A stretch of 48,777 nt of DNA from assembly GCF_002211445.1 (NCBI RefSeq), contig NZ_LSTO01000001.1, forward strand, positions 3,211,419-3,260,195. Reading direction: 5' to 3'. The notes beneath the pieces were generated by a model. The model saw only the letters and a program-made list of their open reading frames with translations, searched no databases and had not been told where the DNA came from. Below, one piece after another: positions 37,745-48,777 of the stretch. The first letter of the stretch is position 1. Every line of letters begins with the position of its first letter. A program made the position numbers and the translations under genes. The DNA comes from Noviherbaspirillum denitrificans (GTDB taxonomy: Bacteria > Pseudomonadota > Gammaproteobacteria > Burkholderiales > Burkholderiaceae_D).

Positions 37745-38497
37745 ATGACGGCGATTGTGCGTATTGACGATGAAGTCATCCGTGTCGAGGACTTCGTCAG
37801 GACACTGAAGCTCACCGGGCAGTTCGAGGGCCTCATCGAGCAGATTGTCAGGGACAAGCTGACGGTGCGTGCGGCGAAGAAACACGGCATCAAGGTAACG
37901 CCGGAAGAGATCCAGGAACGTGCCGACAACTTCCGCCGCGTGCAGGGCCTGCACCGCGCGGCCGACATGAACAACTATCTCAATGCGCTGGGCGTGAGCC
38001 TTGACGAATTCGAGACCTTCGTCACCGACAGCCTGTACCAGGAAAAGATGATGGCCGACGTCTGCAGCGACAAGGCCATCGAGCATTACTTCAAGCTCAA
38101 CTCGCCGAAGTTCGACAGCATCGAAGTCAGCCACATGGTGCTCGACGCCGAAGGCAAGGCCAAGGAAATGGTGTCCTACCTGCGCGATGATCCGGATGCC
38201 TTCGGCGACATGGCGCGTGAGCATTCCGTTGCCGATACAAAGGAGCAGGGCGGGCGCATCGGCAAGGTGCTGCGCGGCTCGCTGAAGACCGATATCGAAG
38301 CCAAGGTCTTCAATGCATCCGAGGGCGACCTGCTCGGACCGTTTGCGTCGCCGGACAGGTCAGTGTTTGAAATCTTCAAGGTGGATGCCAAGCATCCGGC
38401 TCGGCTGGATGACGACACGGCGGCCGAGATCCGCCGCCTGCTGCGAGAGGAATGGCTGTTTGCCCGCGCGCAGGAACACATCATCGAAGCACGGTAA
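37745..38497 (+). CDS. Cytoplasmic parvulin-type peptidyl-prolyl isomerase
   Basis: 250 residues from ATG 37745 with a strong ribosome site (AAGGAGG). The N-terminal 105 residues are helical and SurA/PpiD-like (FVRTLKLTGQFEGLIEQIV, VTPEEIQERADNFRRVQGL). The parvulin domain (about 120-225) has SVADTKEQGGRIGKVLRGSL and GPFASPDRSVFEIFKV. Unlike SurA or PrsA it has no signal peptide or membrane anchor, so it acts in the cytoplasm. Being 9 bp upstream of a C39-peptidase exporter, it is probably a chaperone keeping the export substrate unfolded or presenting its leader (inference). First gene of a four-gene operon. Confidence 0.88.
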   Translation: MTAIVRIDDEVIRVEDFVRTLKLTGQFEGLIEQIVRDKLTVRAAKKHGIKVTPEEIQERADNFRRVQGLHRAADMNNYLNALGVSLDEFETFVTDSLYQEKMMADVCSDKAIEHYFKLNSPKFDSIEVSHMVLDAEGKAKEMVSYLRDDPDAFGDMAREHSVADTKEQGGRIGKVLRGSLKTDIEAKVFNASEGDLLGPFASPDRSVFEIFKVDAKHPARLDDDTAAEIRRLLREEWLFARAQEHIIEAR

Positions 38498-38506
38498 TCC
38501 CCTTTC

Positions 38507-41500
38507 ATGGACGCGGCGCAGAAACAGCAGCAGCCCCTGGCGGATTTCCTCGCGTCCGTCGAGCTCCTTTCTCCCTTCAGCCGCGACGAGATCGAGCGGC
38601 TGGCAGAGCATGCGGAGTCCCGCTTCTTCGCATTCGGCGACACGGTCTGCAATGCCGGTGACCCGGCCGGTGGATTGTTCATCGTCAAGTCCGGTTCGGT
38701 GCGCGTCTTTACCGAGGAGAACGGCAAGGAAATCAGCATGGGCGTGCGCAAGGAGCGCGAGGTCATCGCCGAGATCGCGATGCTGCGCGACTACCGGCAC
38801 GAATCATCGGTGCGCGCGTCGCTCAAGACCGAACTGCTGTTCATCCCGCGCAAGGTCATCGAGCCGATCATCGCGCGCAATCCCGCGGCGCTGGAGTTCA
38901 TCGCCAGTTATGTGGCGATCAGCTCGGCCGGCGGATTCGTCACGCGGCTGTTCGATCTGCGCGGCAAGGTCAACAAGGCGGAGCTGGAAGAGTTCGTGCG
39001 CAGCGTGGGCGTCAAGCGCGTTGCGGCCGGCAGGGACATCCTGAAGCAGGATTCGAAGGAAGACCGGCGCCTTTATGTGATCCGACAGGGGGAAGTCAGG
39101 CTGTTGCGCACCGAGGAGGGCACCGAGTATCCGCTCGCTACATTGCACCAGGGCGACATCTTCGGCGAGAAGGCGTGCCTGATGCGGCAGGAACAGATGG
39201 TGACGGTGACCGCCGTTACCGACACCACGCTGCTGGTGATCCCGGAAAAGACCATCCACCTGATCCTGGAGCGCAACCCGAAGCTGCGTGAAGTGCTGGA
39301 AGACCGCATCCGCATTGTCGAGCGGGAACTGCAGCGGCAGAAGAAGCTCGAGGAGCGGCGCAAGCGCCCGGTGCTGCTCGACCTGCAATCAAAGCCCGCA
39401 ATGGGCGAGAAGGTCATTCGCCGCTTCCCGCTGGTCGAACAGGCGGAAGAGATGGATTGCGGCGCCGCCTGCCTGGCGATGATCTGCAAGCACTACGGCA
39501 TCCCGATGACGCTGGGCAAGCTGCGCGAACTGGCCAATGTGACTACGGCCGGCGCCACGCTCGACAGCCTCGCGCGCGTGGGCGACTCGCTTGGATTCTC
39601 CACGCGCGGCGTGCAGTGCACCTACGAATCCCTGCTCGGATTCCAGCTGCCGTTCATCGCGCACTGGGAGGGTTACCACTACATCATCGTCTATGGCGTC
39701 TCCAAGACCCACGTGTGGGTCGCCGATCCGGCCATCGGCTTCAAGAAAATGGCGGTCGAGGAATTCGAGCGCGGCTGGAGCGGCACCTGCCTCGTCTTCA
39801 CGCCGGGGCAGGACATGGTGCAGCTCGCGGCGTCGCGCTCACCCTGGATACGTTTCGTCGGCTATCTCAAACCGTACAAGAAGATCCTGCTGCATATCTT
39901 CCTTGCCACCTTCGTCATCCAGGTGCTCGGGCTGGTGCCGCCGCTCATCATCCAGAACATCCTCGACGGCGTCATCGTGCACCAGAACTTCAACCTGCTG
40001 CACCTGCTGATCGTCGGGCTGGTCATATCAAGCCTGTTCACGCAGCTGATGACGACCATACGTTCCTTCCTCGCCGGGTTCATGGTGCGCAACCTCGACT
40101 TCGCAATGATGTCGCACTTCTTCAAGCACACCATGTCGCTGCCGTTTTCCTTCTTCGCCAAGCGCAAGACGGGCGATATCCTCGCGCGCTTCCAGGAAAA
40201 CCACACCATCCGCGCCTTCCTGACAGAGTCGACGATCACCACCATCCTCAACCTGCTGATGGTATTCATCTACTTCACCATCATGTTCCTGTACAACGTC
40301 AAGCTGACGATGGTGCTGATCGCCTTCGTCATACCGATCATTACACTGACGGTGTTGGCGACGCCGAGGGTGAAGAATTTCGCACGCGAGGCATTCGCCG
40401 CATCGACCGACGCGCAAGCCTTCCTGATGGAGGCGTTGGGTGGCGTCGAAACCGTGAAGGGCATGGGGACCGAACGCCCGGTGCGCCTCAAGTGGGAAAA
40501 AAAATACGTGAAGGCGCTGGAGGTGCAGTACCGCGCGCAGACCTTCAACATCTGCATTTCGCTCGTGGGCCAGATCCTCAATGCCGCGACCACCATTGCG
40601 GTGCTCTGGGTCGGCGCGAGCCTGGTGCTCTCGCGCGAGCTGAGCATCGGCCAGCTGATCGCCTTCAACGCCTTGATGGGCAGCGTGCTGGCGCCGCTGA
40701 TGGGCCTGGTCGGCCTGTGGAATCTGCTCAATGATGCCGGCGTGGCGATGGAGCGGCTGGGCGACGTGCTCGACATGGAACCGGAGCAGAAGCCGCAAGA
40801 CTTGCCGTCGCGCGTGGTGCTGCCCGACCTGCAGGGCGAGATCAAGCTGGAAGGCCTCTACTTCCGTTATGGCGGCGACGACACGGCCTATGTGTTGGAA
40901 AACATCAGCCTCGACATCAAGCCGGGCGAACTGGTTGCCATTGTCGGCCGCAGCGGATCGGGCAAGACCACACTGGCCAAGCTGCTGGTCGGCTTCTACA
41001 TGCCCACGGAAGGCAAGATCGTGGTCGACGGCTACGACATGAGCGTGATCGACAAGGATTACTACCGCGCGCAGGTCGGCTATGTCATGCAAAGCAATCT
41101 GCTGTTCTCGGGCACGATCGCCGAGAACATCGCAAGCGGCGAAGAAAGCCCGGACCGCCGGCGCATCGAGGAAGTGGCAAAGATGGCCGATGCGCACGCC
41201 TTCATCAGCAAGCTTCCGCTGGGTTATGAACAGGTGGTCGGCGAGCGAGGCATGGGCTTGTCCGGCGGCCAGATCCAGCGCTTGTGCATCGCCCGCGCGC
41301 TCTACCACGACCCGCGGCTGCTGGTGTTCGACGAAGCGACCTCAGCGCTCGACACCCAGTCCGAAAGCAACATCATGGGCAACATGCACGAGATCCTCAA
41401 GGGCCGCACCGCGGTCGTCATCGCCCATCGCCTCAGTACCATCATGCGTGCCGACAAGATCCTGGTGCTGTTTGAAGGCGCGGTGGTCGAGCAGGGACGG

Positions 41501-41569
41501 CACGAGGAACTCGTCGCGCGCCGCGGCATGTACTACGAACTCGTCCAGAAACAATTGAGCGCCGCATGA
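38507..41569 (+). CDS. Peptidase-containing ABC exporter with two N-terminal CNB-like domains
   Basis: 1020 residues. Order: CNB-like 1 (about 15-130), CNB-like 2 (165-275), C39 peptidase (305-435), six-helix membrane domain (445-740), ATPase (780-1015). The peptidase is complete: Gln312, Cys318 (MDCGAAC), His391 (GYHYIIVYG) and Asp407 (VADPAIG). It should cut after a Gly-Gly leader during export. ATPase motifs are GRSGSGKTT, LSGGQ, LLVFDEATSALD and AHR. Neither CNB domain keeps the phosphate-binding arginine, so the ligand may not be cAMP. The layout recalls the cyanobacterial exporter HetC. No HlyD or TolC gene is in the window. The stop overlaps the next start (ATGA). Confidence 0.93.
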   Translation: MDAAQKQQQPLADFLASVELLSPFSRDEIERLAEHAESRFFAFGDTVCNAGDPAGGLFIVKSGSVRVFTEENGKEISMGVRKEREVIAEIAMLRDYRHESSVRASLKTELLFIPRKVIEPIIARNPAALEFIASYVAISSAGGFVTRLFDLRGKVNKAELEEFVRSVGVKRVAAGRDILKQDSKEDRRLYVIRQGEVRLLRTEEGTEYPLATLHQGDIFGEKACLMRQEQMVTVTAVTDTTLLVIPEKTIHLILERNPKLREVLEDRIRIVERELQRQKKLEERRKRPVLLDLQSKPAMGEKVIRRFPLVEQAEEMDCGAACLAMICKHYGIPMTLGKLRELANVTTAGATLDSLARVGDSLGFSTRGVQCTYESLLGFQLPFIAHWEGYHYIIVYGVSKTHVWVADPAIGFKKMAVEEFERGWSGTCLVFTPGQDMVQLAASRSPWIRFVGYLKPYKKILLHIFLATFVIQVLGLVPPLIIQNILDGVIVHQNFNLLHLLIVGLVISSLFTQLMTTIRSFLAGFMVRNLDFAMMSHFFKHTMSLPFSFFAKRKTGDILARFQENHTIRAFLTESTITTILNLLMVFIYFTIMFLYNVKLTMVLIAFVIPIITLTVLATPRVKNFAREAFAASTDAQAFLMEALGGVETVKGMGTERPVRLKWEKKYVKALEVQYRAQTFNICISLVGQILNAATTIAVLWVGASLVLSRELSIGQLIAFNALMGSVLAPLMGLVGLWNLLNDAGVAMERLGDVLDMEPEQKPQDLPSRVVLPDLQGEIKLEGLYFRYGGDDTAYVLENISLDIKPGELVAIVGRSGSGKTTLAKLLVGFYMPTEGKIVVDGYDMSVIDKDYYRAQVGYVMQSNLLFSGTIAENIASGEESPDRRRIEEVAKMADAHAFISKLPLGYEQVVGERGMGLSGGQIQRLCIARALYHDPRLLVFDEATSALDTQSESNIMGNMHEILKGRTAVVIAHRLSTIMRADKILVLFEGAVVEQGRHEELVARRGMYYELVQKQLSAA

Positions 41570-42873
41570 AACTCTTTGACCAACGGCTGGGCGGCACCAG
41601 CGTCACCTACGCCGGCGTGCTGGAAAAAATCGAGATCATGCGCAACACCCTGCGCTGGGCATCGAAGCTGGAGCGAGCGGATATCGAAAAGCTGCTGCGG
41701 CACGCCAATACGCTGCGCGACGAAGTGATGCAAATGTCGCACAAGGAGCGTTTCGTGCGTGCGGCCACCGCCGAGGTCGAGCCGCTGGAGCCGATCGAAC
41801 GTCCGCCGGGTGAGCGGCGCAAGGGCCTGATGGACCGCAGCTTCATCTTTGAAGGCACCTTCGGCGACAACCCCAAGCTGTTGGAATCGCTGGAAATCGC
41901 GGAAAAGGCCGCGCCCACCGATCTGCCGGTGCTGATCGACGGCGAAAGCGGCACTGGCAAGGAACTGATGGCCAAGGTCATCCATGCGAACGGCTCGCGC
42001 GCGGACAAACCTTACATTTCCGTCAACTGCGGCGCGATCCCTGACAACCTGCTGGAATCGGAACTGTTCGGCCACAAGAAAGGCGCGTTCACCGGCGCGG
42101 CCAACGACCGCAAGGGCAAGTTCGAGAGCGCGCACAAGGGCACCATCTTCCTCGACGAGATCGGCGAACTGCCATTGCAGGGGCAAGTGAAGCTGCTGCG
42201 CGTGCTGCAGGCGCACGAAATCCAGCGCGTCGGCTCGGACGAGATCATCAACGTCGACACGCGCATTGTCGCCGCCACCAACAAGAACCTGCGCAAACTG
42301 ATCGAGGAAGGAAGCTTCCGTGAAGACCTGTTTTACCGGCTGAGCGTCATCCACGTCACGCTGCCGCCGCTGCGCGAGCGCAAGGACGAGATTCCGCTGC
42401 TGATTTCCTTCTTTTGCGACGAGGCGGCGGAGGCGCTGAAGCGTGCGCCGGTCAAGATGACGCCGCGCCTGCGCGACTTCATGCTCCACTATTCCTATCC
42501 CGGCAACATCCGCGAGCTGCGCAACCTGATCTACCGGCTTTCCTGCCTGGCAGGGGACATGGCGGATATCGTGCACCTGCCCGAGGATATCCGGCCCAAG
42601 GCGCCGGCGCGTGCGATCACGGCAGGGCCGATGGACATCGAGGCAATGAAGCTGACCTCCCTCAGCGATGCCAAGCGTGCGGCGAGCGACGAAGCCGAGC
42701 GGGCCTTCCTCGAGCACGGCCTGAAGGAAGTCGGCGGAACCGTGGCCGAACTGGCAAGACGCTGCGACATGAACCGGTCGCACCTGCAGATGTTGCTGAA
42801 GAAGCACGGCATCCGGTCCAAGGATTTCCGGCGGCAGGCGGCGGAGGCGCAGGAGAAGGGCAAGGCGCACTGA
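41566..42873 (+). CDS. Sigma-54-dependent transcriptional activator without receiver domain
   Basis: 435 residues, start ATG overlapping the exporter stop. An N-terminal segment of about 95 residues with coiled-coil character (EKIEIMRNTLRWASKLERADIEK) has no recognisable receiver, GAF or PAS domain. The AAA+ domain has GESGTGKE (126-133), the sigma-54-contacting GAFTGA loop (173-178), Walker B FLDEIGE and FREDLFYRLSV. A Fis-type helix-turn-helix is at the C-terminus (GTVAELARRCDMNRSHLQMLL). It should open sigma-54 promoters; a good candidate lies before the kinase gene at 47374-47390. Its control input is unknown, possibly binding by the exporter or HDOD partner. Confidence 0.93.
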   Translation: MKLFDQRLGGTSVTYAGVLEKIEIMRNTLRWASKLERADIEKLLRHANTLRDEVMQMSHKERFVRAATAEVEPLEPIERPPGERRKGLMDRSFIFEGTFGDNPKLLESLEIAEKAAPTDLPVLIDGESGTGKELMAKVIHANGSRADKPYISVNCGAIPDNLLESELFGHKKGAFTGAANDRKGKFESAHKGTIFLDEIGELPLQGQVKLLRVLQAHEIQRVGSDEIINVDTRIVAATNKNLRKLIEEGSFREDLFYRLSVIHVTLPPLRERKDEIPLLISFFCDEAAEALKRAPVKMTPRLRDFMLHYSYPGNIRELRNLIYRLSCLAGDMADIVHLPEDIRPKAPARAITAGPMDIEAMKLTSLSDAKRAASDEAERAFLEHGLKEVGGTVAELARRCDMNRSHLQMLLKKHGIRSKDFRRQAAEAQEKGKAH

Positions 42874-42982
42874 ATTGGTGTTTTGATAATGCTGCGCATC
42901 CGGTTTTTCTTGAGCTGGATGCGTACACCGCAACGGCACGGCACAGTACACTGTCCGCTGCCCGTCGAATTGCCTGCCGCCT

Positions 42983-43996
42983 ATGTTCAAGAAGCTCATC
43001 GACCGATTTTTCCACCGCAGCCCCGGGCCATTGGTGCCGGACGAGGACCTTGCGCTCAATCCGCTGACCGTGCTGGCCGTCGAGCCGCCCGAGCCGGTGG
43101 AGATGATCGACATCGACAACCTGTTTTTCCCCTGGCTGCTTGGCATGGGCACGGGCGTGGCTGACGGGATGAACGATGCCGAGAACCGCCTGCTGCGCAC
43201 ACTCAAGCGCGTGGCCGACGCCGACGATCCTGCCACCGCGGACCTCGTTCCCCGCATTCCATCGGTGATTCCCCTGCTGCTGCGCAGCCTGCGCGACCGC
43301 AATGTCTCCAACAGCCAGCTGGCGGAGCAGGTGTCGCAGGATGCAGTGCTTGTCGCGGCAGTGCTGAAGCAGGTGAACAGTTCCTATTACCGCCGTGCGT
43401 CGGCGGTCAAGACCATCGAAGAGGCGATTGCTGTCATTGGCCAGAACGGCCTGCGCATGCTGGTCGCGGGCGTCGCTTTCCAGCCGCTTTTCAACGCGGG
43501 TCTCGGCCACTTCACCGGACAAGGCGCGCCGCGCGTCTGGGAACTGTCGGAGCCCTATGGCGTCGCTTGCCGCCATTTTGCAAAAGTGCGCCGGGTGGAC
43601 GGTTTCGAAGCTTTCCTTGCCGGGCTGCTGCAGGGCGTGGGTGTGATCGTCGCACTGCGCGTGATTGACCAGGCTGGCGGCGCGGCACCCGGCGAGCTGC
43701 GTTCGCTCGACTTCCAGTCTTCATTCGCGCATTACGCACGGCGCCTCGCGTGCGTGATCGGCAAGCAGTGGGAATTCCCGGAACAGGCCATCGCGGCGAT
43801 CGATCGTTCCGGTCCGGCCTCCGCGCTGGCGAGCACCGTGCGCGCAGCCGACCGCGTCGGCAAGATCCGCGTGCTCGTCAGGCATGGCATGCTGCGGACC
43901 GACCTTGCGGAAGTCTGCCTTGAAGAGAGCGGTGCCACCGCCTGCTACAAAGAAATCCTCGCAATGGAAGACGCGCAGGAGAGATCGGCTGCCTGA
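42983..43996 (+). CDS. HDOD-domain protein of the exporter operon
   Basis: 337 residues from ATG 42983, with a weak ribosome site. The N-terminal 95 residues are Pro/acid-rich and include IDIDNLFFPWLLGM. The HDOD domain (about 105-300) has LAEQVSQDAVLVAAVLKQVNSS, TIEEAIAVIGQNGLRMLVA and YGVACRHFAKVR. No HD metal residues or catalytic motifs, as expected. It is last in the prolyl isomerase-exporter-activator operon, 109 bp after the activator gene; the gap contains only a 7-bp inverted repeat (42895-42923). Likely a regulatory scaffold for the system; its partner is unknown. Confidence 0.88.
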   Translation: MFKKLIDRFFHRSPGPLVPDEDLALNPLTVLAVEPPEPVEMIDIDNLFFPWLLGMGTGVADGMNDAENRLLRTLKRVADADDPATADLVPRIPSVIPLLLRSLRDRNVSNSQLAEQVSQDAVLVAAVLKQVNSSYYRRASAVKTIEEAIAVIGQNGLRMLVAGVAFQPLFNAGLGHFTGQGAPRVWELSEPYGVACRHFAKVRRVDGFEAFLAGLLQGVGVIVALRVIDQAGGAAPGELRSLDFQSSFAHYARRLACVIGKQWEFPEQAIAAIDRSGPASALASTVRAADRVGKIRVLVRHGMLRTDLAEVCLEESGATACYKEILAMEDAQERSAA

Positions 43997-43999
43997 GCC

Positions 44000-44593
44000 T
44001 TATTCGTCCCGATCCCTTGCCGGCAGCGCGTCGCGGAAGGAATCAAATGTCTTCCACGCGGGCACCGGCGGTGTGTAGCCGGGCCGCGGTGCGTACGCAG
44101 AGTATTCGGTCAGCTGCATCTTGTGGATATAGCGCGGGCAGTTCGGGAAGATAGCTGCCGCTTCCACGCGCACGATGAACACCGATCCGGGAAAGTCATC
44201 GCGCAGGGGATCATCTTCGCTGATGGTAGCCGTCCCGTTGATGCGCAGGCGCTTCGGGCTTTCAAAATCAAGGAACAGCATGCCGACGTTCGCGTTCACG
44301 AGCACATTTCCCCACGTGCGATACATGCCGTTGCCGTCGTAGTCGGGAAAGGCGAGGGTGCGCTCGCCGACGACATGCACGAATCCCGGCAGTCCGCCCT
44401 TGTAGGAGCAATCCGGCCGACCCTCGGCATCGGCGGTGGCGATGAAGAACATCGGACTGCGTTCGATGAAGGCGCGGTCCTCCTCGGTGAACGCGGTGCG
44501 CAATGTCACTTCGCGCAGTCTGTCCGCCAGCCGCCTGGTGTCGCGCGCGTCCTGCAGGCGCCGCATTCCGTCGTGGTAAACGTCGCTAGCCAT
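44000..44593 (-). CDS. Pyridoxamine 5'-phosphate oxidase-family flavoprotein
   Basis: 197 residues from ATG 44593 with AGGAGG 4 nt upstream. The split-barrel FMN-binding pattern is present: FIERSPMFFIATADAEGRPDCSYKGG near residue 42, LAFPDYDGNGMYRTWGNVLVN near 82 and VGMLFLDFESPKRLRINGTAT near 102. It belongs to the group of uncharacterised FMN- or F420-like oxidoreductases rather than to PdxH itself. It lies between the exporter operon (stop codons 4 bp apart, convergent) and the kinase gene on its own strand. I see no reason to tie it functionally to the exporter. Confidence 0.88.
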   Translation of the reverse strand: MASDVYHDGMRRLQDARDTRRLADRLREVTLRTAFTEEDRAFIERSPMFFIATADAEGRPDCSYKGGLPGFVHVVGERTLAFPDYDGNGMYRTWGNVLVNANVGMLFLDFESPKRLRINGTATISEDDPLRDDFPGSVFIVRVEAAAIFPNCPRYIHKMQLTEYSAYAPRPGYTPPVPAWKTFDSFRDALPARDRDE

Positions 44594-44703
44594 AAGGCCT
44601 CCTCGTGGTCCGGACGCTTTCAGTTTTAGCGTCCTGGCACAGGATTGCAAGCTTGCTACCGCGCCAGGTCTCGGGTTGCGTAGCGTGATACACCGGATAG
44701 CTG

Positions 44704-47304
44704 TCAGTACCCCGACGACTCATTCGCCACGTTCCTGCGCCCGGCATTCTGCGTATTGTTCGCCGGCGTATCCGCCTCGGGATTCTTCTGGGACTGCTCG
44801 GCAAACACCATCTTGCCGTTCTCGGTCCGCTTGTCGTCCCTGAACTCGCCTTCCCAGTAGCTGCCGTTGGCCCAGGTATAGCGGCCCTGGCCATGGCTCT
44901 TGCCGCGCAGCCAGTTGCCGTCGTAGACGTCACCGCTCTTGAAGCGCGTTGCGCCGCGGCCATTGGGCATGCCGTCGCGCACTTCACCTTCATAGCGGCT
45001 GCCGTCCGCGAAGGTGATGGTGCCGCGTCCGTTCGGCATGTCACGCGCCCAGTCGCCGCTGTAGCGCTGGCCGTTGCTCCAGACAAAGCGGCCTTTGCCT
45101 TCCTTCATGCCGCGCACGAGCGTGCCTTCGAACTGGTTGCCGTTGGTCCAGGTGATCTTGCCGGTGCCGGACACGGCGCCGGACTTTGGATCGACCGAGA
45201 AATTGCCGACCATGGTCTGGTCATCCAGCACCAGCGGCTTGCGGGCTGAAGCGGTGGGTGTCTCGGTGCCGGCGGGCGTCGCCGGCCGCGACTCCAGGGC
45301 CGATTTTGGCGGCGGCGTGACGACCCGCTCGGGCGGCTTGATGCTCGCGACCCGATCGGCGGGTTCCGGCGGTTTGTGCTCCGTAACGGCAGGGGCGGAC
45401 GCCGCCGGAACCGGTGCAGCCTGCGGTGCAGCCGGAGCGGGCGTCGGTGCTGGCGCAGCGGCTATCGGGGGCGGCGTCTCCTTCTTCACGCTCGCTGCCG
45501 GTGGCACAGCCGGCACCGGCTCCTCGCGCTCGGTCCTGTCAGGCTGCTTGAAGCTGGCGATCCGGTCCTTCGCCAGTGCGGCGTAGCGGCCCTTCGGATA
45601 CTTCTTCAGGTAGGTCTCGTAAGAGGTCTGCGTGTGCACTGTGGTCGACGCGGTCCAGAGGTCTTCCTCGGACGAGGACGGCGTTTCCTTCGACTGCTTG
45701 ATGCTGTCTAGGCGCAGGCGGGCAACCGCAGCGTAACGGCCGCGCGGGAACTCCTTCAGGTACTTTTCATACGCACCGGGCTTGTCCGAACTGCTTGCCT
45801 TTTGCCAGGCGTCGTCCTCTCGCGTGGTGGATGGCGCAGGCGGCGCGTCGCCGATGCGGGGAGTTTCCTGCAGGACGGGCGCAGGAGCCGGCACCGGCGC
45901 CTTGGCGACAGGCGGAGGCAGGGGCTGCGCGGGCCGGGTTTCGACGGGCTTGAGCGTATAGGAGGGCGGCTTGCGCTCTTCCTTTTCGTCTGGTGTCTCG
46001 CTTGCGCCGGAGGACTCCATCGCCGTGCTGCTGCCCGAGCCTGCGCCCAGGCCCCGCCAGGACGAACCTGTTCCGAGATAAATGCCGGATGCAACCCCTG
46101 CTGTCAGAAGAATGCCGAGGATGCTCCATTCGCGCTTGCCGTAGGACGAGCCCCGGGTTGGGGGGCGGCCCGCAGGCTGCGGCTGGGAGCGCTGGCGTTC
46201 GCTGCGTTGGGTGACCGGCGGCGCGATGCGGGTCCTGACGTCCTGCATCATGTCCAGCGGCATCTGCGTGCGCACCGGATCCATGTCGGGACTGCGGACC
46301 ATGGTAGTGGTGAAACCGGGATCCGATTGCGGCAGGGTGCGCGGCGGCGCTTCCATGATGTCGAGCGCATGGCGCAGTTCGCCGATGGAGCGGAAGCGCT
46401 GTTCCGGCTTGACCGACAGCGCCTTGTCGATGGCGGCCAGGAAGCCTGCGCTGTAGCGGCCCTTGCCGACTTCGCGCGCGGGCACCAGTTCGTCATGCAC
46501 CATGCGCGCGACAGCAGGCGGCGGCGCCTTGCCGGCGATCAGGTAGTAGACCACGGCAGACAAGGCGTAGATGTCCGTCCATGGCCCCTGGCGCAGGCCG
46601 GCGATGTCGGCGTACTGTTCGATCGGCGCATAGCCTGGCTTGAGGATCGCCGTGAGGCACTGCGTCAGGTCGCCGATCACGCGGCGTGCGGCACCGAAGT
46701 CGAGCAGTAGCGGACGGCCGTCCTTGAGCAGCAGGATGTTGTCTGGCGCGATATCGCGGTGCAGGCATTGCCCACGGTGGATGATCTCGATGGCATCGAA
46801 CAGGTCGCCCAGCAGCACGCGCACCCAGGATTCCGAAGGCGTGATGCGGCGCTGCTTGAGCGCCTGCTTCAGCGTGATGCCTTCGTAGAATGGCATCACC
46901 ATGTAGGCGGTGCCGTTGCCTTCCCAGAAGCGATGCACCTTTACCAGCGAGGGCGAGTCGAACTGCGCCAGCATCTTGGCCTCGTTGATGAAGCTCTTCA
47001 AGCCGGCGGTGAAGGTCTCGACGTTGTGTTGCGATCGTACCGTAACGGCCAGGCGCGTGGTGCGCATGGCAAGGCCGGAGGGCATGTATTCCTTCAGCGC
47101 GACCTGGCGTTCCAGCGAATGGTCGTAAGCCAGATACACAATGCCGAAGCCGCCCTCGCCGATGAGGTCGAGAACTTCGAACTCGCCCAGGTGCGTGCCG
47201 ACCGGGAGGACGTTCGCGCTGTGCTCCGCGTCACTTTCCGTCGTCGGCCGGAAGGGCATACGGCGGGTTCGCAATGCGGTCTTCTGATTGAAATCGTTCA
47301 CCAT
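44704..47304 (-). CDS. Hanks-type Ser/Thr kinase with membrane helix, YxxYLxxxPxGRY repeats and MORN repeats
   Basis: 866 residues from ATG 47304. Kinase domain about 38-315: glycine loop GEGGFG, Lys71 (VALKEY), catalytic Asp184 in HRDIAPDN, DFG 202-204. A transmembrane helix (about 393-411) follows a basic linker. The C-terminal region has a Pro/Ala-rich stretch, two related repeats (YEKYLKEFPRGRYAAVA at 512-528; YETYLKKYPKGRYAALA at 562-578) and five MORN repeats (about 705-825, e.g. NGQRYSGDWARDMPNGRGT). The C-terminus is therefore predicted periplasmic, where MORN repeats may bind lipid or envelope. A sigma-54 promoter and a PP2C phosphatase gene lie upstream, the expected partner set. 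Confidence 0.92.
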   Translation of the reverse strand: MVNDFNQKTALRTRRMPFRPTTESDAEHSANVLPVGTHLGEFEVLDLIGEGGFGIVYLAYDHSLERQVALKEYMPSGLAMRTTRLAVTVRSQHNVETFTAGLKSFINEAKMLAQFDSPSLVKVHRFWEGNGTAYMVMPFYEGITLKQALKQRRITPSESWVRVLLGDLFDAIEIIHRGQCLHRDIAPDNILLLKDGRPLLLDFGAARRVIGDLTQCLTAILKPGYAPIEQYADIAGLRQGPWTDIYALSAVVYYLIAGKAPPPAVARMVHDELVPAREVGKGRYSAGFLAAIDKALSVKPEQRFRSIGELRHALDIMEAPPRTLPQSDPGFTTTMVRSPDMDPVRTQMPLDMMQDVRTRIAPPVTQRSERQRSQPQPAGRPPTRGSSYGKREWSILGILLTAGVASGIYLGTGSSWRGLGAGSGSSTAMESSGASETPDEKEERKPPSYTLKPVETRPAQPLPPPVAKAPVPAPAPVLQETPRIGDAPPAPSTTREDDAWQKASSSDKPGAYEKYLKEFPRGRYAAVARLRLDSIKQSKETPSSSEEDLWTASTTVHTQTSYETYLKKYPKGRYAALAKDRIASFKQPDRTEREEPVPAVPPAASVKKETPPPIAAAPAPTPAPAAPQAAPVPAASAPAVTEHKPPEPADRVASIKPPERVVTPPPKSALESRPATPAGTETPTASARKPLVLDDQTMVGNFSVDPKSGAVSGTGKITWTNGNQFEGTLVRGMKEGKGRFVWSNGQRYSGDWARDMPNGRGTITFADGSRYEGEVRDGMPNGRGATRFKSGDVYDGNWLRGKSHGQGRYTWANGSYWEGEFRDDKRTENGKMVFAEQSQKNPEADTPANNTQNAGRRNVANESSGY

Positions 47305-47373
47305 GGGTATCTACCGAATCTGTTTGGTCAGCCGCCTCGCCAATGCATGAATGCGCAAGGAACATCCGCTTCT

Positions 47374-47390
47374 AGCACCTTTGGTGCCAG
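47374..47390 (-). promoter_or_regulatory. Sigma-54 (-24/-12) promoter of the kinase gene
   Basis: On the minus strand CTGGCACCAAAGGTGCT has GG and GC exactly 10 bp apart. It matches YTGGCACG-N4-TTGCW at 11 of 13 defined positions. Transcription would start near 47362, about 58 nt before the kinase ATG. A sigma-54 activator gene is encoded 4.5 kb away, which supports the call. Confidence 0.65.
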
Positions 47391-47529
47391 CCTGACGTGT
47401 GCGGTGGCTACAGGCGTCGTTGGAAGGATGGATCGGTCAGCGTGCATGGCGTCTGTCGGGGCTTGTCCAACATTTGCTCGCCGGCGCCGCTTCACCTGTT
47501 GGCATTCACGCGACACGCCGGCATCACCA

Positions 47530-47569
47530 GATCATGTGCGCGCCCGGCGCTGCAGACGGGCGCATGATC
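47530..47569. repeat. Large imperfect inverted repeat between the PP2C and kinase genes
   Basis: GATCATG plus CGCCCG (separated by 4 nt) pair with CGGGCG plus CATGATC, giving 13 bp around a 10-nt loop and one bulge. It lies 65 bp past the PP2C stop on the minus strand, without a T run. It may end or process the phosphatase transcript. The 329-bp gap 47305-47633 holds this, the sigma-54 promoter and no credible ORF. Confidence 0.5.
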
Positions 47570-47633
47570 CCCTGTCCATGATGGTCGTGACGGACGCACA
47601 GGGCTTGATCTGAATCGCTATTTGTCGAGATAG

Positions 47634-48404
47634 TCAGAGCGCGGGATTGAGGACGGTCTTGTCGCTCGTATGCAAGTCGTCAGCGCGTGCGACCACGGCG
47701 GAAATGTTGTCGCGTCCGCCGCGCATGAGAGCGATCTCGACCAGTTCATCCGCAGCCTGCGGACAATTGCCGGTCACCAGCGCGGCGCGAATCTCCTGTT
47801 CGCTCACTTCATTGCTGACGCCGTCGCTGCATAGCAGGAATATGTCGCCGTCGGCCACTTCAATCATCTCGCCGTCGACTTCAAGTGTTTCAGCCGCGCC
47901 GACAGCGCGCGTGATGAGGTTGCGCGCGGGATGGTGGATCGCATCTTCGGCGGTCAGGCTGCCACAGGCAAGCAGTTCCTCGACCTGGCTATGGTCGCGC
48001 GTGAGCTGCATGAGGTGACCGTTTCTGCAAAGATAAATGCGGCTGTCGCCCGCCCACAGGTAGGCGCAGCGACGGCCGTGCGCGAGCAGGACGACGACGG
48101 TGCTGCCGATGATTTGCGCGCCGCGATTGTGCGCTTCGGCGCGCAGCTGGCGGTTGACGGATTGCAGGCGGGCCTCTGCATCGGTGGCAAAGAGTTCGAG
48201 CGCATCGCCTGGTTGCAGGTCCGAGAGCGAGGCGACGATGGCGTTGCTGGCGAAGTCCCCCAGCGTGTGGCCGCCCATGCCGTCCGCCACTGCCCATATG
48301 CCGCGGTCGGCCAAGTCGAGCACGGAGTCTTCATTGATCTTGCGAACCAGTCCCGTATGCGTGCGGGAGGACGACGTCCATTTGAATGGCGTGGTTTGCG
48401 TCAC
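47634..48404 (-). CDS. PP2C-family Ser/Thr phosphatase
   Basis: 256 residues from GTG 48404, chosen because GGAG lies 6 nt upstream and NVTQTTPFKW leads straight into the domain. All PP2C metal-site blocks are present: THTGLVRKINEDSVLD, WAVADGMGGHTLGD, GSTVVVLL, WAGDSRIYL, LLCSDGVSNEVSEQEI and GGRDNISAVV. It is a soluble, Mn/Mg-dependent phosphatase and the natural antagonist of the neighbouring Hanks kinase. Kinase/PP2C pairs also occur in type VI secretion clusters, but no such gene is here. It sits 105 bp after the double-glycine peptide gene on the same strand. Confidence 0.94.
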   Translation of the reverse strand: MTQTTPFKWTSSSRTHTGLVRKINEDSVLDLADRGIWAVADGMGGHTLGDFASNAIVASLSDLQPGDALELFATDAEARLQSVNRQLRAEAHNRGAQIIGSTVVVLLAHGRRCAYLWAGDSRIYLCRNGHLMQLTRDHSQVEELLACGSLTAEDAIHHPARNLITRAVGAAETLEVDGEMIEVADGDIFLLCSDGVSNEVSEQEIRAALVTGNCPQAADELVEIALMRGGRDNISAVVARADDLHTSDKTVLNPAL

Positions 48405-48451
48405 GTTCACCTCCGACGGCAGGCGGCAATCCGGAATTCTTCCCTGCGATG

Positions 48452-48457
48452 AGTATA
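48452..48457 (-). promoter_or_regulatory. Possible -10 box (TATACT) of the PP2C gene
   Basis: TATACT on the minus strand lies 47 bp before the GTG start; the -35 region (GTGCAA at 16 bp) is weak. It suggests that the phosphatase can be transcribed separately from the peptide gene. Confidence 0.35.
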
Positions 48458-48509
48458 GAGCCCGTAACGCGGATTGCACGCAGTCCCGCGCAGAAGGATT
48501 GTCTTGCGT

Positions 48510-48777
48510 CTAATGCTTGGCGTTTGTGCCGGGCTTGATGTTTGTGCTGGCCTCGTTCAGCCCGACGTTGATGTTCGCGTTCGCGGCGGTGTTGTTGATA
48601 TCCACCATCTGGACCTGGTTGATCATCTGGTCGGCGTAGTTGTTGATCTGGTAGAAGTTGACCACCGCCGCCCCGCCGAACGGATTGCTATGGCGGTTGT
48701 AGGGACGGAACGCGCCAAAGACCCAGGAGCCGTCGCCGCCCCTGATGGACGACATCGCCTTGCGGTCGAGGATGCGG
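48510..48777 (-). CDS. Double-glycine-leader peptide precursor, Asn-rich (5' end outside the window)
   Basis: The frame is open to the window edge, so the start is missing; 88 codons are visible. The leader end reads ILDRKAMSSIRGG: Gly-Gly at -2/-1, Ile at -4, Met at -7 and Leu at -12, the hydrophobic spacing recognised by C39 peptidases. The predicted mature part has 74 residues beginning DGSWVFGAF, Gly/aromatic-rich at first, then Asn-rich (YQINNYADQMINQVQ, INNTAANANINVGLNEAS). It has no cysteine, so it is not a disulfide bacteriocin or lanthipeptide. The intact C39 exporter at 38507-41569 is the obvious processing partner. Function unknown: signal, bacteriocin-like or surface/amyloid-like protein. 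An ATG at 48755 would give an 81-residue reading without the full leader, which I consider wrong. Confidence 0.7.
   Translation of the reverse strand, partial: RILDRKAMSSIRGGDGSWVFGAFRPYNRHSNPFGGAAVVNFYQINNYADQMINQVQMVDINNTAANANINVGLNEASTNIKPGTNAKH

Follow-up and report, generated by a model that had tools for sequence, protein, structure and literature searches.

The window analysed here is a 48,777-nucleotide stretch of the Noviherbaspirillum denitrificans genome (GCF_002211445.1, contig NZ_LSTO01000001.1, positions 3,211,419 to 3,260,195 of the forward strand), whose right-hand part holds the genes of a putative peptide export system. Three tightly packed genes on the plus strand encode a parvulin-type protein with SurA_N-like and rotamase parts (37745..38497; PF00639, 1.7e-11), an exporter joining two cyclic-nucleotide-binding (CNB)-like domains to a C39 protease and an ABC permease/ATPase (38507..41569; PF00027 twice, PF03412, PF00664 and PF00005), and a receiver-less sigma-54 activator (41566..42873; PF00158, 3.4e-71; GAFTGA at residue 173). 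Nine bases separate the parvulin and exporter genes, and the start of the activator gene overlaps the stop of the exporter gene. On the minus strand lie a PP2C phosphatase gene (47634..48479) and a Gly-Gly precursor gene of family A (48510..48777, the window end). The phosphatase scores 207 bits against NF033484 (2.8e-61), for which the cut-off is 230, and passes the cut-offs of PF13672 and PF00481. The interval between the two groups is occupied by an HDOD protein (42983..43996, plus strand; PF08668), a neighbour probably outside the system, and a Hanks-type kinase with MORN repeats (44704..47304, minus strand; PF00069 and PF02493).

At the window end the precursor runs straight into a scaffold gap of 10 N, and the sequence beyond the gap apparently belongs to a different gene. 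The double-glycine leader described in the earlier note is thus visible only in its last 14 residues (RILDRKAMSSIRGG), the 5' end of the gene being lost in the gap; these residues align with the full leaders, of about 26 residues, of homologues. The window precursor is 58% identical to the homologues from N. autotrophicum and N. aerium. The assembly contains many such 10-N joins (for example, window position 48777, or about 693-702 of locus L003), so that gene order between its pieces is not to be trusted. A second, weaker C39 match was observed elsewhere in the genome, in a 284-codon open frame (G000:C1:2753074-2753481, locus L002).

A scan of species genomes with the exporter protein gave 263 confirmed places, and the best 80 loci, with 78-85% exporter identity over nearly the whole protein, were analysed. 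These are mostly from Noviherbaspirillum and other Oxalobacteraceae, Paraburkholderia, Caballeronia, Cupriavidus and Aromatoleum; 65 of them, with at least 9 kb before and at least 8 kb after the exporter, are referred to as full loci. The parvulin gene adjoins the exporter gene and is present in 79/80 loci and 65/65 full loci, the single locus lacking it (L045) lying on a contig that begins at the exporter. The activator, with its GAFTGA motif as the earlier note had read it in the window, was found in 80/80 loci (65/65 full), PP2C in 71/80 (60/65 full) and a family A precursor, by either of two methods, in 70/80 (60/65 full). Three further genes recur near the exporter: HlyD (67/80 loci, 58/65 full), an FHA protein (66/80, 58/65 full) and an outer-membrane channel (65/80, 58/65 full).

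Exporter and precursor also travel together between genomes. In an order-wide sample of 250 genomes, the window's genome included, the exporter, family A and family B occurred in the same 2 genomes and none of them in the other 248. Among 249 genomes of one family (that of genome G158), the exporter was present in 79, in genome G486 as a fragment, and the precursor in 80: all 79 exporter genomes carry a precursor, against 1 of the 170 exporter-less genomes (Fisher 4e-65, uncorrected for relatedness). The family A model used here has 22 rows, one of which is the window's truncated precursor. The system is real, conserved and coherent. The single unit proposed in the earlier note, whose members were expected to recur near the exporter, holds for the exporter, parvulin, activator, PP2C and Gly-Gly peptide; it does not hold for the HDOD protein and the MORN kinase, both absent from all 80 loci. 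The note missed HlyD, the outer-membrane channel, the FHA protein, a conserved kinase and 13 further Gly-Gly peptides of the window's genome.

The arrangement of these parts varies between lineages. In Caballeronia sp. SBC2 the whole set lies within about 18 kb, in the order kinase, caspase-like gene, DUF4399, Gly-Gly peptide, channel, FHA, HlyD, parvulin, exporter, activator, PP2C and precursor; Burkholderia stagnalis also fits these genes into 18 kb, and its kinase lies at the opposite end. The Burkholderiaceae operon reads outer-membrane channel, FHA-FHA membrane protein and HlyD, followed by parvulin, exporter and activator. In N. autotrophicum, channel, FHA and HlyD are some kilobases off, behind Gly-Gly peptides and a kinase. 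In the window's genome, HlyD (71% identical) is found elsewhere in the assembly, the FHA gene lies in two places at scaffold gaps, and the conserved kinase, itself cut by a gap, stands just before the larger FHA piece. In three Oxalobacteraceae a further gene lies directly before the channel (L119 6974-8929, L120 7389-9347 and L121 5464-7500), and none was noticed in Burkholderiaceae; the L119 member, the only one scanned for domains, has FHA, GAF and HD domains and is possibly a cyclic-di-GMP phosphodiesterase input.

The HDOD gene was present in the window as the earlier note had it, and on its absence from the loci it was rejected as a probable outsider to the system. The MORN kinase is likewise genuine and has its own sigma-54 promoter. 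Its catalytic part was found in none of the 80 loci by a search that detects close relatives only, and another kinase is conserved, so it was rejected as the kinase of the system. The conserved kinase is a 27-29% identical relative of the MORN kinase; it was found in 22/22 exporter genomes tested, and in 18 its coordinates place it no more than 17 kb from the exporter, the same contig being assumed. Four called proteins, in L006, L026, L056 and L085 (a fragment), belong to another kinase family. The FHA protein was present in 12/12 genomes tested, near the exporter in two (L014 and L026) and apart from it in 10. The presence of Ser/Thr phosphorylation genes in the system, claimed in the earlier note, is upheld. 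A further kinase, with a universal-stress-protein domain (L104 5585-7177), adjoins a Gly-Gly peptide cluster in the window's genome.

A leader pattern identified 186 short open reading frames (ORFs) in 73/80 loci, compared with none in reversed and 3 in shuffled sequence; at least two of the 186 resemble chance matches (L023 20268 and L031 3841). After three ORFs with unknown residues had been dropped, sorting gave 67 members of family A, 73 of family B and 6 of family C, leaving 37 unsorted, mostly B-like. The shared leader has roughly the form MxxLxIKDLxxxxELDxxAMSAVRGG. Its near-fixed positions in the 146 sorted peptides are -12 L, -7 M, -4 V or I, -2 G and -1 G, much of which the search pattern itself demands. 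The mature parts span 35-85 residues (median 68). Family A, encoded next to PP2C, starts with a WVYGW-like stretch and has a core resembling NQMINQFQ, and family B has a conserved core of Q-x3-Q-x-Q plus NGNNxAF; a short basic peptide family also occurs. Across families A to C the mature parts contain 21-23% Asn plus Gln, at most 0.4% Cys and few Lys, Arg or Glu. The family B model matches 14 places in the window's genome: the window precursor plus 13 sites grouped in three clusters. One of the 13 matches only from position 25, its leader unseen.

To assess promoters, -24/-12 elements were scored against the textbook consensus with our own weights, and the threshold was set at the 99th percentile of random locus segments. 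This level was reached by 64% of 67 family A upstream regions and 65% of 96 family B regions, and by 29% of 14 regions of other Gly-Gly genes; no gene for the channel, FHA protein, HlyD, parvulin, activator or PP2C did so. A gapped-dyad search recovered GTTGG-N7-CCAAC in 34/163 upstream regions (1.8 expected), which was widened by eye to TGTTGG-N7-CCAACA. Promoter and palindrome together precede 41/67 family A and 57/119 other Gly-Gly genes (98/186 jointly), against 10/1280 other called genes; the promoter without the palindrome adds 2 family A, 10 other Gly-Gly and 8 other called genes. About half of the Gly-Gly genes therefore display, in sequence, the -24/-12 promoter and upstream site of a sigma-54 regulon. 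The sigma-54 control suggested in the earlier note is supported, with the peptide genes themselves as its targets.

The note had located such a promoter before the MORN kinase, and TGGCACCAAAGGTGCT is indeed found there (47374..47389, minus strand), scoring 16.9 of 17.9 and lying 85 nt 5' of the ATG. Upstream of it is a candidate activator site (47454..47472, minus strand) that matches the palindrome at 11/12 positions; a match of at least 11 of 12 in 220 bp arises in 31 of 3000 background cases, and the kinase had no part in deriving the motif. The window contains six promoter-like sites, and only the one at the MORN kinase has the palindrome. Because it carries both elements, the MORN kinase probably belongs to the regulon as a lineage-specific member.

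Two side observations concern sigma-54 promoters. A gene about 16-17.5 kb into L028, L030, L031, L035, L038 and other loci has the same promoter and palindrome signature (10 sites); the L058 member of this gene cluster encodes an LRAT domain (PF04970), and the cluster is a possible further member of the regulon. In many loci, the 5' untranslated regions of family B contain a short CGAGC...GCTCG-type inverted repeat a little past the sigma-54 promoter, within what is presumably the transcribed leader (for example, L058 before 3020, L102 8942-9030 and L104 7835-7912). GAGCA-N7-TGCTC was counted in 31/163 upstream regions, and RNAalifold on the 5' untranslated regions gave no consensus fold.

The exporter is as the earlier note described it, with an intact C39 triad and two CNB-like domains. 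The triad (C318/H391/D407) and the Walker A motif are identical in 80/80 exporters, and a Cys-His-Asp domain fused to an ABC permease and ATPase, with co-occurring Gly-Gly precursors, is the make-up of C39 peptidase-containing ABC transporters. Given the intact catalytic residues and conserved partners, the C39 domain is predicted to couple cleavage after Gly-Gly to export. In CRP-type domains, an Arg in the phosphate-binding cassette contacts cyclic nucleotides. In a hand alignment of the two PF00027 regions its place is taken by His98 and Gln230, both invariant (80/80 exporters), a replacement suggesting that a ligand, if any, is perhaps bound otherwise than in the manner of cyclic AMP. A plasmid-borne exporter from Skermanella (35% identity over nearly full length, two CNB stretches) was considered as a sister system and rejected: it aligns a Ser at C318, and the 23 kb around it contain HlyD and no match to the strict leader pattern.

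The parvulin appears to lack a signal peptide, as the earlier note stated, none being evident on reading its N-terminus (no predictor was run). Its similarity to PrsA/SurA-type proteins of known structure is weak (best 2.9e-06), and it aligns to positions 89-333 of the 340 in TIGR04500, at 89.1 bits with a cut-off of 180. TIGR04500 is the family of MirC, which is necessary for graspetide formation and for which a chaperone role is hypothesised by its authors, according to the available portion of PMC13097080. As in that report, a PpiC-related protein is here clustered with a C39 exporter. The window parvulin differs in that its match starts at profile position 89, the N-terminal domain of MirC seemingly missing, and no ATP-grasp enzyme of the graspetide kind was noticed among the conserved neighbours, although none was specifically sought. 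The likeness to MirC suggests a chaperone role, and the parvulin is likely a cytoplasmic chaperone/isomerase for the precursors.

Together, these data point to what is probably a type I secretion system dedicated to one family of mini-proteins that are rich in Asn/Gln and almost devoid of Cys. Judging by promoter anatomy and gene linkage, the activator would bind the TGTTGG-N7-CCAACA palindromes and turn on the sigma-54 promoters of the precursors, which carry a shared leader. The parvulin may keep the precursors unfolded or present them, and may assist export as the earlier note proposed; the C39 domain would then cut after Gly-Gly, and the 35-85-residue product would leave through HlyD and a TolC/NodT-like channel. 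The kinase, PP2C and FHA-FHA membrane protein may adjust activity through phosphorylation of Thr, and a ligand may be sensed by the CNB-like domains. In the window's genome, the machine is split, with HlyD, the FHA protein and the conserved kinase elsewhere and the MORN kinase as an added regulon member. Judged by gene anatomy, the predicted export mechanism is well supported, and the predicted regulation is supported by the promoter evidence.

Several observations weigh against this reading. The window's own precursor is truncated by the scaffold gap, 5/65 full loci (L007, L008, L011, L025 and L075) have no precursor nearby, and genome G423, whose assembly is fragmented and whose precursor match is interrupted by a stop, has no exporter match. 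A strong promoter is absent from 76/186 Gly-Gly genes, and 0/7 family C regions exceed the 99th percentile. The palindrome was derived from the same upstream regions in which it was counted; outside Burkholderiaceae, a minority of the motif input, the promoter precedes only 17/53 Gly-Gly genes, 13 of these 17 having the palindrome. The kinase and FHA counts come from exporter genomes only. The support as a whole consists of sequence evidence.

For the role of the exported peptides, two explanations are about equally plausible, and each is tentative. In the first, to which we give roughly one chance in three, the peptides assemble outside the cell as the subunits of a polymer or matrix, perhaps amyloid-like. 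This would fit the Asn/Gln-rich composition with hardly any Cys and few charged Lys, Arg or Glu residues, the conserved family B core, and the tandem copies that are sometimes identical or nearly so (such as L006 18731 and 21381), suggesting a need for quantity. However, none of five precursors matched the curlin repeat in Pfam at E up to 1, and AlphaFold models were too poor to judge the fold, with a mean predicted local distance difference test score of 46 for family A and of 65 for mature family B, where secondary structure was unassigned. A more elaborate version, in which Thr phosphorylation and a CNB-bound ligand gate the export of sigma-54-induced mini-proteins that assemble outside the cell into the polymer, is speculative and rather doubtful. 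It would echo the type VI threonine-phosphorylation pathway, which also uses a kinase, PP2C and FHA proteins. A gene with TagF_N, a type VI secretion-associated domain, was observed 4.3 kb behind HlyD in N. autotrophicum (L119 18594-19589).

In the second explanation, which is possible to a similar degree, the peptides serve as bacteriocins or contact-dependent inhibitors. Class II bacteriocins typically have double-glycine leaders, and each genome here encodes several variable paralogues. NCBIfam holds bacteriocin and NHLP/N11P precursor families. Searched against Pfam and NCBIfam, five precursors gave nothing over the cut-offs and so were not placed in any such family; their weak matches had E values of 0.04-0.15, the nearest being Bacteriocin_IIc (E 0.08, one peptide). 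PHROGs returned no match for 26 family B members. PADLOC gave generic kinase, ABC, CNB, PP2C and activator matches, from which a defence system was not inferred. The identity of some tandem copies argues against antagonism, and no conserved small immunity gene was apparent among the neighbours, although none was specifically sought and ORFs below 70 codons were not called. The closest published machine, in cyanobacterial clusters with the same core, is interpreted as exporting bacteriocins in the part of PMC3140520 available to us.

An unlikely third explanation is that the peptides are signals and that the kinase, PP2C, FHA protein and activator form the response. The linkage of signalling genes to the system is in its favour, but there are many paralogues per genome, the activator has no receiver or ligand domain in Pfam, and no receptor dedicated to the peptides stood out, although none was looked for. 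That the genes are mere neighbours by an accident of synteny is hardly credible: the HDOD and MORN kinase genes are indeed not conserved neighbours, but exporter and precursor co-occur, and FHA and kinase genes are kept even where they are located apart.

A dedicated export system of this kind is of interest on several counts. One conserved gene set joins peptide-cutting export, a dedicated parvulin, sigma-54 control and Ser/Thr phospho-signalling, which are usually met apart. It also names a coherent family of probable secreted peptides that is easily missed because the genes are short, and the promoter signature can be used to seek the regulon. Soil bacteria that have the system include Paraburkholderia xenovorans LB400 and Cupriavidus necator, which makes its function directly testable.

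The earlier note knew of no described system with this set and named HetC-type exporters as the nearest architecture. The first statement needs correcting, as the core machine is of a known kind. According to the available portion of the 2011 study by Wang and colleagues (PMC3140520), cyanobacterial clusters of groups I, II and VI bring together a long-type C39 exporter, with an N-terminal extension of about 300 residues, a SurA rotamase, HlyD and double-glycine precursors, all of which the Burkholderiales system shares; that portion does not mention a sigma-54 activator or a kinase/PP2C/FHA set. The exporter of Nostoc sp. HK-01 is 43% identical over residues 305-1018, its adjoining HlyD and rotamase 26% each, and it has one CNB domain over the Pfam cut-off where the window exporter has two. 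Two HK-01 peptides resemble those of Burkholderiales only in the Gly-Gly leader. HetC of Nostoc PCC 7120 shares the CNB-C39-ABC order, its peptidase and ATPase residues are essential, the peptidase being important in vivo, and its CNB domain binds ppGpp in vitro; it differs, as far as the available text of PMC10986499 goes, in having one CNB domain described, no identified substrate and a role in heterocyst formation. In the open-licence literature, titles and abstract starts yielded no account of the form seen in Burkholderiales, where a sigma-54 regulon, phospho-signalling genes and Asn/Gln-rich peptides are present; this is weak evidence of absence. The accessible parts of two articles agree with this: PMC7474880 lists only TolC and LapE as type I secretion in P. 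fungorum, without mention of HlyD, C39 or double-glycine, and PMC8277102 mentions neither cyclic nucleotide, FHA domain, isomerase nor double-glycine. Class II microcin type I secretion uses a C39 exporter, HlyD and TolC and a Gly-Gly leader, and the Burkholderiales system has the exporter, HlyD, a TolC-type channel and the leader in common with it. To these it adds CNB domains, a parvulin, its own sigma-54 activator, phospho-signalling genes and many Asn/Gln-rich paralogues.

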